From the NCBI GenBank assembly GCA_017462915.1, contig JAFTQG010000042.1:1-64000 (forward strand): a DNA stretch of 64,000 bases. The letters run 5' to 3'. The stretch comes from Prevotella sp. (GTDB taxonomy: Bacteria > Bacteroidota > Bacteroidia > Bacteroidales > Bacteroidaceae). Of this stretch, positions 45,228-48,852 are shown in pieces. Below the pieces are notes generated by a model that was given only the letters and a program-made list of their open reading frames with translations, did no database searches and had not been told where the DNA came from. Numbering within the stretch: position 1 is the stretch's first letter; each line of letters opens with the position of its first letter. The position numbers and the translations under genes are program-made.

Positions 45228-46952
45228 CTAATCTACTTTCACCTTAATAGAACGCCGTGTAGGAGTCACAACGACATATACACCTGTCGGAAGATCATCA
45301 TCATCATGTATTTCAAAGCCAGAGAGATTGAATACGCGAGAACCTGCAGGCGCAATGATACGTCCGTCGATCACTTTTACAAGAGCATCATCCCTGCCGT
45401 CTATTGTATTTTCATCTATAGCTGTTTTTATAACACCTATAGTATCAAAATGTCCCCACACTTCATGCTTTTTATATTCATCCTGTGATTCGTACGGTAC
45501 CCAGAGTCTGATTCTTTTGTAACGATAATAGCCGTCATGGTCAAACGAATTCGCGTAAACCGTAGGAGGTGTGACGGCAAGTACCTCAAAATCCTTTAAG
45601 TCACTACACCAGTAAAAAGCTTCTTCACCAATAAACTTCACAGAACTTGGTATGGTTACTGAAGACAAAGACGAGCAGCATGAAAAAGCACTATTCGCAA
45701 TAGTTTTCACAGAATAAGGAATAGTAATTGATGTTAAGTTATTGCTTCTTGAGAAAGCATCACGTCCTATAAATGTCACAGAATTAGGAATGGCATAATG
45801 GCCATTCCTTCCCTCAGGATATTTAACAATAGTTGTCATGTCTTTCGAGAATAAGACTCCATCCACAGACGTATAAGCAGTATTGTCTGGAGCTACAATG
45901 ATATTTTCCATAGAACTGCAGGCGTCAAATGCTCTAACTCCAATACCCGTTACAGAGTAAGGTATGGCAATGGAAGATAAAGACGAGCAATCAGAAAATG
46001 AATAATGATCAATCTTTTCTAAAGAATTAGGCAAGGTTATCGAAAATAAAGATGAGCAACCTTGGAAAGCCATATTACCAATGGATGTCAACGAGCTGGG
46101 ATTCGGAATATTGACAGATGACAAAGACGAGCAACTTGAAAATGCTGAGCTTTCTATAGATGTCACAGAGCTTGGAATATTGACAGATAATAAAGACGAG
46201 CACCTGGAGAAAGCACAAGTTCCTATTGTTTTCACAGAATTCGAAATTGTAACAGAGGATAAAGACGAGCACTGAAAAAAAGCCTCATCACATATAGATA
46301 TCACAGAACTTGGGATGGTTACGGAAACCAGAGCTGAGCACCCATGAAATGTGCCCCTATTAATAGCTCTGACAGAATTTGATATTGTGACTGAGGACAA
46401 AGACGAACATCCCTCAAATGCCCAAGCCTTTATAGATGTCACAGAGTTAGGAATTATTATAGATGGTAAAGACGAACACTGATAGAAAGCAATTTCTCCT
46501 ATAGTCTTCACAGAATTGGGAATGGTGATAGAGGATAAAGACGAACAATCCCTGAAAGCCCAGTCTCCTATTATTAGCACTGAACTTGGAATGGTTACAG
46601 ACAACAAATAATTACAACCTACAAATGCGCCTTTTCCTATAGCTGTCACAGAATAAACGCAACCATCATAGTTCACTTCTGCCGGGATGTCGATTTCTGT
46701 GAATGCATAACAGTTTGTAGGTGGATATGCTACTTCTGCAGTTTTCTTTGCATTATCAAGATTGTAATAAAGTTCTCCTATCTTAACTTGCGCAAAGAGA
46801 GTCAGTGAAGAAAAGACCAGGAAGATAACCAAGAAGCATCTTAAGGACGACGACAATCCCCTGCGCAAAGGGTATTGCAAATGTAACCAGTGGCAATAGA
46901 AATGGCTACTACACACATGACCGGAAATGGTAAATCTGCTCATAAGAAACAT
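45228..46952 (-). CDS. BspA-like leucine-rich repeat surface protein
   Basis: About 574 residues. A hydrophobic signal segment (CFLVIFLVFSSLTLFAQ) ends near residue 55 and is preceded by an unusually long basic N-region; the true start may be an in-frame TTG near 46855 rather than the ATG at 46950-46952. Some fifteen LRR_5 repeats of about 23 residues follow (pattern F-x-x-CSSL-x-S-[IV]-x-IP-x-S[VL]), then a beta region and the tail PTGVYVVVTPTRRSIKVKVD seen on exported Prevotella proteins. Relatives mediate attachment. It is expressed behind the structured leader described separately. Confidence 0.85.
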   Translation of the reverse strand: MFLMSRFTISGHVCSSHFYCHWLHLQYPLRRGLSSSLRCFLVIFLVFSSLTLFAQVKIGELYYNLDNAKKTAEVAYPPTNCYAFTEIDIPAEVNYDGCVYSVTAIGKGAFVGCNYLLSVTIPSSVLIIGDWAFRDCSSLSSITIPNSVKTIGEIAFYQCSSLPSIIIPNSVTSIKAWAFEGCSSLSSVTISNSVRAINRGTFHGCSALVSVTIPSSVISICDEAFFQCSSLSSVTISNSVKTIGTCAFSRCSSLLSVNIPSSVTSIESSAFSSCSSLSSVNIPNPSSLTSIGNMAFQGCSSLFSITLPNSLEKIDHYSFSDCSSLSSIAIPYSVTGIGVRAFDACSSMENIIVAPDNTAYTSVDGVLFSKDMTTIVKYPEGRNGHYAIPNSVTFIGRDAFSRSNNLTSITIPYSVKTIANSAFSCCSSLSSVTIPSSVKFIGEEAFYWCSDLKDFEVLAVTPPTVYANSFDHDGYYRYKRIRLWVPYESQDEYKKHEVWGHFDTIGVIKTAIDENTIDGRDDALVKVIDGRIIAPAGSRVFNLSGFEIHDDDDLPTGVYVVVTPTRRSIKVKVD

Positions 46953-47335
46953 AAGTCTTAAATGAAAAGCCTCGGTCGTCCCCTCGTTGGCCCTATAGTA
47001 TTAAATGTGAAAAGCGTAGGAGTCTGTACCTGTCACCGTCCTACTGTCAGAGGCTTCTCGCATTGCCTATCTATGTCGGACGGCAACGCAGAAGCCCACG
47101 CTTATATATGCAATCGATGTGTCCGGCTATATTTCACATGAAATATCGTGCCGGATACTGGATAGACATATATCCACGGGCATCTACCGTTGCTCAACCC
47201 TTGACATAGATATGAAATTTTGCGAGAATTTCTGACAGTCAAGAATCAGCGCGGATAAACGCTTTCTTATGTGTGGTTAACACATCCCAGCCTCACTTAA
47301 CCCCAGACCGGGGCTTCTGCGAGGCGGTCTGTAAG
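46953..47335 (-). ncRNA. Candidate structured 5' leader RNA with switch-like pairings
   Basis: The transcript from the promoter at 47338-47368 has about 380 bases before the ATG. Hairpins visible: CAGACCG/CGGTCTG (47304-47331), ATGTG/CACAT (47269-47285), a 14-bp interrupted stem at 47122-47155, GGATA/TATCC (47160-47175), a ~15-bp stem between 47052-47067 and 47082-47096, and GTAGGA/TCCTAC (47016-47044). The loop of the first hairpin (47311-47321) is complementary over 11 bases to 47087-47097, one arm of the 15-bp stem. The other arm (47050-47059) can pair over 10 bases with 46964-46973, 12 bases before the ATG. No known riboswitch class was recognised. Confidence 0.6.
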
Positions 47336-47337
47336 TG

Positions 47338-47368
47338 CAAAAGTAATAAATTTTATTAATCTGACAAA
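47338..47368 (-). promoter_or_regulatory. Promoter of the BspA-like gene
   Basis: On the minus strand, TTTG (47368-47365), 19 bases, TACTTTTG (47345-47338), a perfect Bacteroidetes arrangement about 390 bases before the ATG. This defines the long leader. Confidence 0.75.
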
Positions 47369-47515
47369 CGAGGGAATAAATAATTTTCCTTTTTTAACAA
47401 TTCACGATAAATTAGTCTCAAAGTCAGGAAAAAGAGGCCTAATATGCAAAAAGTCTACATTCTCACAAAGCATGACTGACAACCGAAGAACAGCTGGTAA
47501 ACAACACCAGAAAAA

Positions 47516-47603
47516 AGGGTGACACTTTACCTTATAAAAGGTGAGGCTTTGCCATGCAAAAGGTGACACATGAAAAGGCAAAAGGTCACCGTCATAACAC
47601 ACA
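47516..47603. repeat. Cluster 4 of four 22-bp direct repeats
   Basis: Units start at 47516, 47538, 47560 and 47582 with heads AGGGTGACACTT, AAGGTGAGGCTT, AAGGTGACACAT and AAGGTCACCGTC. It lies between the BspA-like promoter and a family 2 hairpin element. Confidence 0.85.
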
Positions 47604-47639: not shown

Positions 47640-47842
47640 TTAAGTAAGTCAACAAAATTAAACGATACAATCCATGATAAAGCAAGCACTTACATCTTGT
47701 ATGTATAAGCCTTGTTCTTTTTGGCTGTTTTTGCCTTGTCTCTCAGTCACATAGTCCCCGCTATGTTCCTTCGTTACAAGACGAAAACATCTCAAAAATA
47801 ACAAAGCTTTATACTATACATTAATTTGGGAGACTTACTTAA
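47640..47842. repeat. Hairpin element family 2, copy b
   Basis: 203 bp, nearly identical to copy a through most of its length, with terminal repeats TTAAGTAAGTC/GACTTACTTAA and apex CATAGTCCCCGCTATG (two bases longer than in copy a). Confidence 0.8.
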
Positions 47843-47961: not shown

Positions 47962-48852
47962 TCACCGCATCCTGCATAGCCTTATCCCGAGCTGTGTGGG
48001 ATGCCTGTTCATGTATGTATGGAGCGTCATCGGCTCCTCAACGACCTTCTTGTGTATCTGCGACGCATTGAGCATGTGGAGGCTGTCGGCATGCCATACG
48101 GCGATGCCTATATGGGATGTGTCAAGACCTTTCTTTGAGGTGATTATGGCTATTATATCTCCGTCCTTGATATAACGCCGAAGATTCCTTGTATTGGACT
48201 TCCCCAGTGCCGACTTCGGGATGTAGCGATAGCGTCTCTGCGCCATTGTCTGTTCCATGCGTCTGATGCCTGGTAGCCATTCCCTGTGTGCAGAAAGCAT
48301 CTTGTAGGAGGAAATGTGTGTCGACATATAGTTGACAGGAGTCTTGGAGAAGTCCTGCCAGGCTGTAAAGGGATGGTCGCCCGTCTTTATACCAGCAGGA
48401 GAAGGCTCTACACGTGAGACTATTCCCTGTCGCGCGTTCTGCTCTATCCAGTATGTAAAGTAATGCTGGCGTGCGGTGTACTCTACGCGGCCGTCGGCAT
48501 AGCGTATGTCGCGCAGATGGCGGCAGTAGTCGTCGAAGGAGGTCTCGCCGTTGCGCGAACAGAGGGCGAGGGCGAGGACTGTCTCCACGTATGTCGTGCA
48601 GTCGAGGGCGCGGAGATTTACGACAAGGCGCTCTTCCGTGGCCTTGTCGAGTGTGCCGCCGACATAGGGTATGCCTTTCAGGGCACGGGCGAAATGGAGG
48701 ACTGTCTCTCCCATGGTCTTACCTCGCAAAGAGGTCTGGGAAGTAAGGAGACGTTCTACAAGTGTCTTGTCCGACGACTGGAAGTCGACCTTCGGAGCGG
48801 CACTGCAGAGGACTGCCGTAAGGGAAAACAGGAGCAGGAGGATTCTTTTCAT
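47962..48852 (-). CDS. DUF1460 secreted protein (NlpC/P60-like amidase)
   Basis: 296 residues with a signal peptide (MKRILLLLFSLTAVLCSAAP). LRALDCTTYVETVLALAL (about 91-108) carries the nucleophile-type cysteine, and DTSHIGIAVWHADSLHMLNAS (about 243-263) the histidine of a papain-like fold. DUF1460 proteins are related to N-acetylmuramoyl-L-alanine amidases and act on peptidoglycan fragments in the periplasm. Its start overlaps the stop of the DUF4421 gene by four bases (ATGA), so the two are translationally coupled. Confidence 0.85.
   Translation of the reverse strand: MKRILLLLFSLTAVLCSAAPKVDFQSSDKTLVERLLTSQTSLRGKTMGETVLHFARALKGIPYVGGTLDKATEERLVVNLRALDCTTYVETVLALALCSRNGETSFDDYCRHLRDIRYADGRVEYTARQHYFTYWIEQNARQGIVSRVEPSPAGIKTGDHPFTAWQDFSKTPVNYMSTHISSYKMLSAHREWLPGIRRMEQTMAQRRYRYIPKSALGKSNTRNLRRYIKDGDIIAIITSKKGLDTSHIGIAVWHADSLHMLNASQIHKKVVEEPMTLHTYMNRHPTQLGIRLCRMR

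Follow-up and report, generated by a model that had tools for sequence, protein, structure and literature searches.

In the RfaH/ops-JUMPstart system a leader element and a terminator stand before accessory operons. The LoaP/dfn leader of Firmicutes likewise places a leader element and terminator ahead of accessory operons, and LoaP requires both the leader hairpin and an intrinsic terminator, as described in the available sections of PMC12691694. In Bacteroides, UpxY proteins counter premature termination in the untranslated regions of capsule loci, according to the accessible part of PMC7315117. The leader RNA reported here lies on the minus strand of a 64,000-nucleotide stretch of a Prevotella sp. 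genome (assembly GCA_017462915.1, contig JAFTQG010000042.1, positions 1 to 64,000; this whole stretch is referred to as the window), directly in front of a gene for a BspA-type LRR_5 surface protein, and is one copy of an RNA family which is uncatalogued in Rfam and larger than an earlier note on this DNA described. Comparison of its copies shows two domains joined by base pairing: the loops of the 5' P2 hairpin and of the 3' S2 hairpin complement each other in three segments. The strand CCCACGC, which precedes a conserved U-tract, was shown by the same approach to have two supported alternative partners, the predicted helices P0 (far upstream) and T (adjacent), and the leader probably decides whether the gene behind it is transcribed.

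The analysis draws on 82 matches to the 3' domain. The 64 leaders among them that have both a promoter box and a 5' domain, and for which 500 nt of sequence is present upstream, were used for a scan of segment pairs and for a cis/trans test, in which pairing energy inside a leader is compared with that of mismatched leaders; alignment A5 holds 63 of these 64, one near-identical row being excluded. The parts of the window copy are as follows.

~47331-46953, minus strand: leader RNA copy, about 380 nt from its predicted start, preceding the LRR_5 gene
47338..47368, minus strand: promoter, with TTTG at 47368-47365, 19 nt, then TACTTTTG at 47345-47338 (sequence and box count in the family)
47311..47321, minus strand: E0, loop of the first hairpin, CGCAGAAGCCC, partner S1a (cis/trans z -6.8 in 64 leaders, -1.9 in 13 dereplicated ones)
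47181..47273, minus strand: 5' domain, with hairpin P1, stem P2, small hairpin P3 and the conserved GCAACGGUAGAUG (alignments A2, A5)
47245-47238 with 47205-47198, minus strand: stem P2 of the 5' domain (alignments A2, A5)
47232..47237, minus strand: 5' strand of LR1, UGUCAG, partner 47050-47045 (98.1% paired against 51.6% shuffled, 63 leaders)
47222..47227, minus strand: 5' strand of K1, UCUCGC, in the P3 loop, partner 47061-47056 (97.6% paired against 81.3% shuffled, 63 leaders; z -13.7)
47203..47211, minus strand: 5' strand of LR2, AUCUAUGUC, partner 47077-47069 (scan z -18.5; further loci z -26.9)
47010..47112, minus strand: 3' domain, with P0, S1a, S2, the LR2, K1 and LR1 strands, the T hairpin and the U-tract (A1, R1, A3)
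47087..47097, minus strand: S1a, GGGCUUCUGCG, partner E0 or S1b (47067-47052) (S1 covariation; E0 z -6.8)
47032..47087, minus strand: S2 stem, 47087-47078 with 47041-47032, enclosing the 3' strands of LR2, K1 and LR1 (98.3% paired)
47045..47077, minus strand: apical loop of S2, with the 3' strands of LR2 (47077-47069), GGCAAU, K1 (47061-47056) and LR1 (47050-47045)
47014..47044, minus strand: terminator-like hairpin T, GUAGGA (47044-47039) with UCCUAC (47021-47016) (89.4% paired)
47101-47095, minus strand: 5' strand of P0, pairing with the same 3' strand as T (96.6% paired)
47010..47013, minus strand: U-tract, four U in the window (at least four U in 76 of 82 members)
45228..46952, minus strand: BspA-type LRR_5 surface protein, 574 aa (PF13306, E 1.5e-91)

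In the unbiased scan of 990 segment pairs LR1 came out top (z -25.4), with LR2 at -18.5 and K1 at -13.4. All six LR1 pairs were present in 58 of the 63 leaders counted, and all four Watson-Crick pairs were found at five of its six positions. As judged from these alignments, the outer segments LR1 and LR2 vary freely provided that both sides change together; the loops of eleven copies in the genome of the window are all different, and the highly conserved GCAACGGUAGAUG and GGCAAU adjoin these freely varying helices. A second set of loci was collected with a DNA pattern, which gave at least 117 matches; 110 of these reached far enough upstream, 106 carried a 5' domain, and 88 were left as non-identical loci with a recognisable T5. 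Ten of the 117 are near copies (at least 90%) of the first set, six of them at 99% or more, and the second set is thus not fully independent; the figures reported for it were obtained by removing near copies and then dereplicating at 85%. The LR1 complement, present in 87 of 88 loci before cleaning and in 78 of 79 without near copies, was found after dereplication as a six-base complement in cis in 74 of 75, compared to 12.2% of mismatched pairs. The corresponding z values were -26.2 for LR1, -26.9 for LR2 and -11.5 for K1, against +1.5 and -0.4 for two control pairings; these figures equal those of the first set in strength. Since 21 of the 82 loci served to build the 5'-domain profile, its co-occurrence count is independent only for the remaining loci: a 5' domain precedes 81 of the 82 3'-domain matches, about 20-111 nt upstream (nhmmer E 5e-22 to 0.02), the sole exception being cut by a contig end that leaves 11 nt upstream. 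Taken alone, the 5' domain gave only four pairs in RNAalifold, which we attribute to its pairing largely with the 3' domain; for hairpin P3 the best of three registers tried was 80.2% paired against 62.7% shuffled. Two further contacts are put forward as suggestions from the scan, a pseudoknot of the P1 loop with GGUAGA (z -6.3) and a helix at the U-tract formed by AAAGCG and CGCUUUU (z -4.8).

The helices of the 3' domain were evaluated over the 82 members in an alignment that had been fitted to P0 and S2 but to neither T nor S1. All four beat 500 out of 500 shuffles in cells paired, double-change cells and covariation score, and beat every slid control in cells paired and covariation score. 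Double-change cells numbered 38 for S2 (98.3% paired, none of 500 shuffles as high), 13 for P0 (96.6%), 24 for T (89.4%) and 28 for S1 (85.9%). P0 and T are mutually exclusive on one 3' strand, and T and S1 each overlap S2; all of these exclusive pairs (P0/T, T/S2, S1/S2) have evolutionary support. The cis/trans test gave z values of -13.7 for K1, -9.8 for T, -9.2 for S2, -8.2 for the post-U hairpin with the T strand, -6.8 for S1a with the first hairpin and -3.5 for S1, while nine other segment pairs ranged from -2.4 to +2.8. In 13 dereplicated leaders the signal was retained by K1 (-5.2), S2 (-4.8) and T (-3.2). Many members suggest that the pre-U strand has a third partner in the post-U hairpin and that S1a can pair with the first hairpin instead, both more weakly once dereplicated. 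Over the six positions following the 3' strand the frequency of the base T is 0.77-0.94, compared to a background of 0.28.

The earlier note had proposed, from the window copy alone, a promoter, a leader with several hairpins and two exclusive states which would open or cover the start region. The hairpins are present as it described, and the leader of 380 nt has a folding energy of -141.6 kcal/mol, where 100 shuffles average -106.3 (sd 5.4; z -6.5). Its promoter is likewise in place, and 56 of 79 leaders have a box of the same type, TAnnTTTG, 35-130 nt ahead of the 5' domain, as against 5/79 in a segment farther upstream and 4/79 on the opposite strand; 38 of the 56 also have TTG near -33. 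The Bacteroidota promoter consensus is TTTG/TAnnTTTG at -33/-7, and the window promoter (TTTG, 19 nt, TACTTTTG) agrees with it. The 11-bp match of 47321-47311 (CGCAGAAGCCC) with 47097-47087 (GGGCTTCTGCG) is exact and is backed in the family by the cis-specific z values given for E0, and the strong stem of 47097-47087 with 47067-47052 is the helix named S1 here. Mutually exclusive pairings involving the loop 47311-47321 were borne out by the family comparison, in which the pairings are conserved and covary. The 10-bp match of 47059-47050 (GAGAAGCCTC) with 46973-46964 (GAGGCTTTTC) does exist, with one G-U pair, but is not conserved, and the switch through this pre-ATG segment found no backing, its pairing having a z of -1.4 with 168 of 2000 permutations equally good in the 64 leaders. 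The contested strand is 47021-47014, not the pre-ATG segment, and its location directly before the U-tract points to transcription termination and not to a covered start codon. While hairpins and exclusive pairings had been recognised, the dominant long-range pairing of the two domains through LR1, K1 and LR2 had been overlooked.

Most copies have in common the promoter, the 5' domain, a 3' domain ending in the U-tract and an ATG about 70 nt further on. A sense open reading frame (ORF) of at least 80 aa was found within 250 nt downstream at 137 of 159 loci, compared to 52 of 159 on the control side under the same ORF rule, and the distance from leader to ATG has a median of 67 nt (quartiles 53-81). 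The two features by which a cis-regulatory leader is recognised, a co-oriented gene directly downstream and a conserved covarying structure, are therefore both present. The genes behind the leader were tallied from 144 of 204 matches: 188 had an ORF, 182 were left after identical starts were removed, and keeping ORFs which start within 130 nt and removing six near-duplicates gave 144 proteins. These fall into 86 Pfam families, and the 25 listed include LRR_5 (13 proteins), NusG (6), DUF2971 (4), LytTR (4), AbiH (2) and UvrD helicase (2); among the 25 listed of 120 PADLOC families are AbiH, GajB, BrxP, SspB and a type III methyltransferase. Because the two tallies have no enrichment control, we claim diversity of the genes and not enrichment. 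By a crude hydrophobicity rule, 74 of the 144 proteins have a secretion-like N terminus. The description as the leader of a BspA-like gene holds for the window copy and not for the family as a whole, in which LRR_5 proteins make up 13 of the 144 scanned.

NusG-domain genes lie directly behind at least eight leaders, those listed being G000:C29, G015:C160, G066:C4, G104:C90, G126:C3, G134:C4, G152:C22 and G152:C61. A core subtype, GGCUCUGACGUUGUCUGUUC, is common to leaders L027, L029, L044, L067 and L073, all of them before genes called NusG-like by eye, with L027, L067 and L073 also called by a NusG-domain match; the four other than L044 have a long first hairpin region and a post-U region that pairs poorly with the T strand. 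An obligatory NusG paralogue acting in trans was rejected on the evidence of genome G069, a single-contig genome which is 99% complete and carries seven leaders with one NusG-domain match, a protein of 189 aa sized like the strongest NusG matches elsewhere. A NusG paralogue is thus not seen wherever the element is present, with a Pfam model which may miss very divergent paralogues.

We consider it rather likely that the element, of about 230-380 nt, is a regulatory leader RNA acting in cis, with conditional transcription termination at the U-tract. Competing helices on the strand before the U-tract favour conditional termination, and it is the simplest reading of competing partners combined with a short, fairly constant distance to the start codon. 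The fold would select the partner of the CCCACGC strand as RNA polymerase passes, and transcription would either end at the U-tract, some 70 nt short of the start codon, or run on into the gene. One common cellular signal, which might be a metabolite, an ion, a protein or the state of the elongation complex, would set the choice for all copies and so produce a regulon of otherwise unrelated accessory genes within a cell. T and P0 supply the hairpin with U-tract and the exclusive alternative that belong to a transcription attenuator; a terminator scan of the window, which covered loops of 3-8 only, found none, however, and a number of other observations also weigh against conditional termination. 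In the window copy the U-tract counts only four U. T is short, with 5-6 bp around a loop of some 17 nt, and P0 abuts the U-tract as well, so that sequence does not tell the ON fold from the OFF fold. Some covariation measures lie within reach of the shuffles, in that the double-change pairs and pair types of P0 were equalled by 40 and 45 of 500 shuffles, the pair types of T by 400/500 and the double-change pairs of S1 by 164/500. In the 13 dereplicated loci T with the post-U hairpin (-1.8), S1a with E0 (-1.9) and S1 (-1.8) are weak, and in four NusG-type leaders the post-U pairing, at -4.3 to -5.7 kcal/mol, is weaker than the mismatched mean of -8.5. One copy in the genome of the window (L026/L075) has no downstream sense ORF, and covariation is unable to tell intramolecular pairing from pairing between identical molecules.

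As an alternative, the leader might be an antitermination element that recruits a protein, with a NusG paralogue (UpxY-like) or another elongation factor binding the leader and carrying RNA polymerase past the terminator in the manner of LoaP/dfn. The behavior of UpxY and LoaP outlined above makes this attractive, as do the NusG matches among the downstream proteins (6/144) and the NusG-domain genes directly behind leaders, but the seven leaders and one NusG-domain match of G069 and an RNA far larger than the dfn hairpin speak against it and leave it possible rather than likely; antitermination by housekeeping NusG, NusA or another factor is possible. The two-domain fold might instead act as an aptamer to which an ion or a small signal molecule binds. 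For such a riboswitch the conserved GCAACGGUAGAUG and GGCAAU beside freely varying helices are suggestive, and the alternative 3' pairings (P0, T) fit, while 86 Pfam families in 144 downstream proteins indicate no metabolite, and we regard an aptamer as possible rather than likely.

The high variability of LR1 and LR2, self-matched in nearly every copy, would fit homomeric kissing equally, and GOLLD, ROOL and OLE do assemble as homo-oligomers in the available text of PMC12286853. That the variable loops pair between identical molecules to form such particles, with the leader position being secondary, is nevertheless quite improbable, given that the regular ATG spacing (~70 nt) and the promoter at the 5' end favour an mRNA leader and that the pairing segments, only 6-9 bp each, are short and so would be able to form within one molecule. 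A stand-alone small RNA ending at the U-tract, with the nearby gene being incidental, would account for that end and for the one copy without a gene downstream; the close sense genes (137/159 against 52/159) and their narrow spacing leave little probability for it. Very improbable indeed is a DNA-level repeat, that is, a palindrome bearing a promoter and resembling a miniature inverted-repeat transposable element (MITE). The leader is multi-copy and, as its antisense nhmmer matches reflect, palindromic as a whole, but it lacks the near-identical dispersed copies with terminal inverted repeats that mark a MITE. A plain DNA search of its own genome gave partial matches at three further places, 69-79% identical, as against 79-96% for a genuine MITE nearby at 40 places, and compensatory changes, G-U pairs included, preserve the helices copy by copy.

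The distribution of the leader was addressed by several searches. The plain DNA search gave matches in 14 of 60 genomes, own genome counted, and iterated nhmmer over 20 loci and the window yielded 22 sense copies. R1, a covariance model built on the 3' domain (103 nt), scored the window copy at 86.3 bits and found 12 copies in its genome at E <= 3e-9, with one weak copy (E 0.004) and two very weak antisense matches below this strong set. Within the genus sample (E 0.01) R1 matched 111 of 150 genomes including its own, 43 of 69 good-quality ones, and at most 13 copies per genome; in the order (E 0.001) its matches covered 45 of 295 genomes, belonging to 28 of 184 genera, own genome counted. In a phylum sample of 296 genomes (E 1e-4) only its own genome matched, with none among the 295 others, and the leader RNA is so far confined to Bacteroidales. 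The DNA-pattern matches listed include Prevotella, Bacteroides, Phocaeicola, Parabacteroides, Muribaculaceae, Odoribacter and Paludibacteraceae; two records labelled Firmicutes and Lachnospiraceae are uncultured genomes whose taxon we treat as unproven. The leader core is also found on five viral contigs (L235-L239), which may contain host DNA, and on two Phocaeicola plasmids in a plasmid collection, while a phage collection gave a single 44-nt match at the edge of one phage record. Behind the leader of viral contig L235 there is, by eye, a helicase-like protein very similar to one behind the Prevotella ihumii leader L127. On the plasmids, of 92-95 kb and from Phocaeicola dorei and P. vulgatus, the same leader (L240, L241) precedes a hypothetical protein. 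Locus L033 (2500-5308) has two tandem leaders, each ahead of its own secreted-protein-like gene, and L026 (4132-4583, G000:C52) carries a good copy of the leader that no sense gene follows and that may be a remnant. Rfam 15 at gathering score gave no leader match in the window and 20 other loci, its sole matches being tRNAs in L090 and in other parts of the window, and at permissive thresholds the leader region had only matches far below gathering scores; the earlier note, too, had recognised no known class.

Around the window copy, the LRR_5 ORF opened at 46952 has about 37 residues before a signal-peptide-like stretch, and its true start may be further in. An AmiA-like amidase gene (PF07313) lies upstream at 47965-48852, and several CACCTTTT-like repeats were spotted by eye at 47514-47590, upstream of the promoter. 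The MITE-like element mentioned above, of about 200 bp (47640-47842), is located just upstream of the leader promoter and has 22-nt inverted ends, TTAAGTAAGTC...GACTTACTTAA, that are 86% complementary; its 40 places in this genome include its own copy, and the others are 79-96% identical to it.

A further possibility, more tentative than conditional termination itself, is that the leader represents a new class of large regulatory RNAs, found in Bacteroidales only and marked by loop-loop pairing over long distances: a portable control module with copy-specific self-matched loops, placed before accessory genes that are unrelated to one another (surface LRR proteins, NusG paralogues, phage-defence, plasmid and phage genes), through which a single signal could gate a variable arsenal by transcription termination. 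If this is true, the RNA class, which reaches 13 matches in a genome, would be an unseen control layer over host and phage encounters in a major gut and rumen order, with surface, regulatory and defence genes behind it, and many unrelated accessory genes in one cell would respond jointly to one nascent-RNA signal. The variable self-matched loops also offer structure prediction a natural and unusually clean record of RNA segments that pair over long distances.

The literature covered, to which supplementary motif lists outside Rfam do not belong, held no recognised description of this leader RNA, and five Bacteroidota terms do not occur in the accessible part of PMC11109978. PMC8040213, in its available text, names palindromic Bacteroidetes candidates of 80-132 bp (HMP_4078, HMP2_4205, HMP2_1065 and HMP2_1032); these, known here by description only, may be fragments of the leader RNA, and a fragment may likewise stand among the supplementary candidates of that paper or the 224 motifs listed in 2017. 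Bacteroidales-1, Bacteroides-1, Bacteroid-trp and the other Bacteroidota motifs in the available part of Weinberg 2010 (PMC2864571) resemble it as structured RNAs of the same order or phylum and differ from it in that Rfam gave no match here, a comparison outside which Bacteroides-2 and the GUCCY-hairpin fall as they lack an Rfam number. With GOLLD and ROOL the leader shares a large, ornate structure, loop-loop pairing and some copies on viral contigs; unlike them it leads an mRNA: it has a promoter of its own, and a gene follows at a distance of about 70 nt. Terminator-type riboswitches are similar in having mutually exclusive helices around a U-tract and a conserved core, whereas the genes behind this leader share no pathway. 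Likeness to the UpxY-regulated capsule 5' untranslated regions of Bacteroides, a comparison made by description and from part of the source, lies in the same order, in premature termination ahead of the first gene and in the NusG-domain genes that some leaders here also precede; most scanned leaders precede other genes, however, and at least one leader-bearing genome has no extra NusG-domain match. LoaP/dfn and RfaH/ops-JUMPstart rely on small hairpins or short motifs, in contrast to the two-domain RNA with long-range pairing described here. The leader is of a known kind, a structured leader RNA or attenuator, and there is a reasonable chance that it merits a class of its own.
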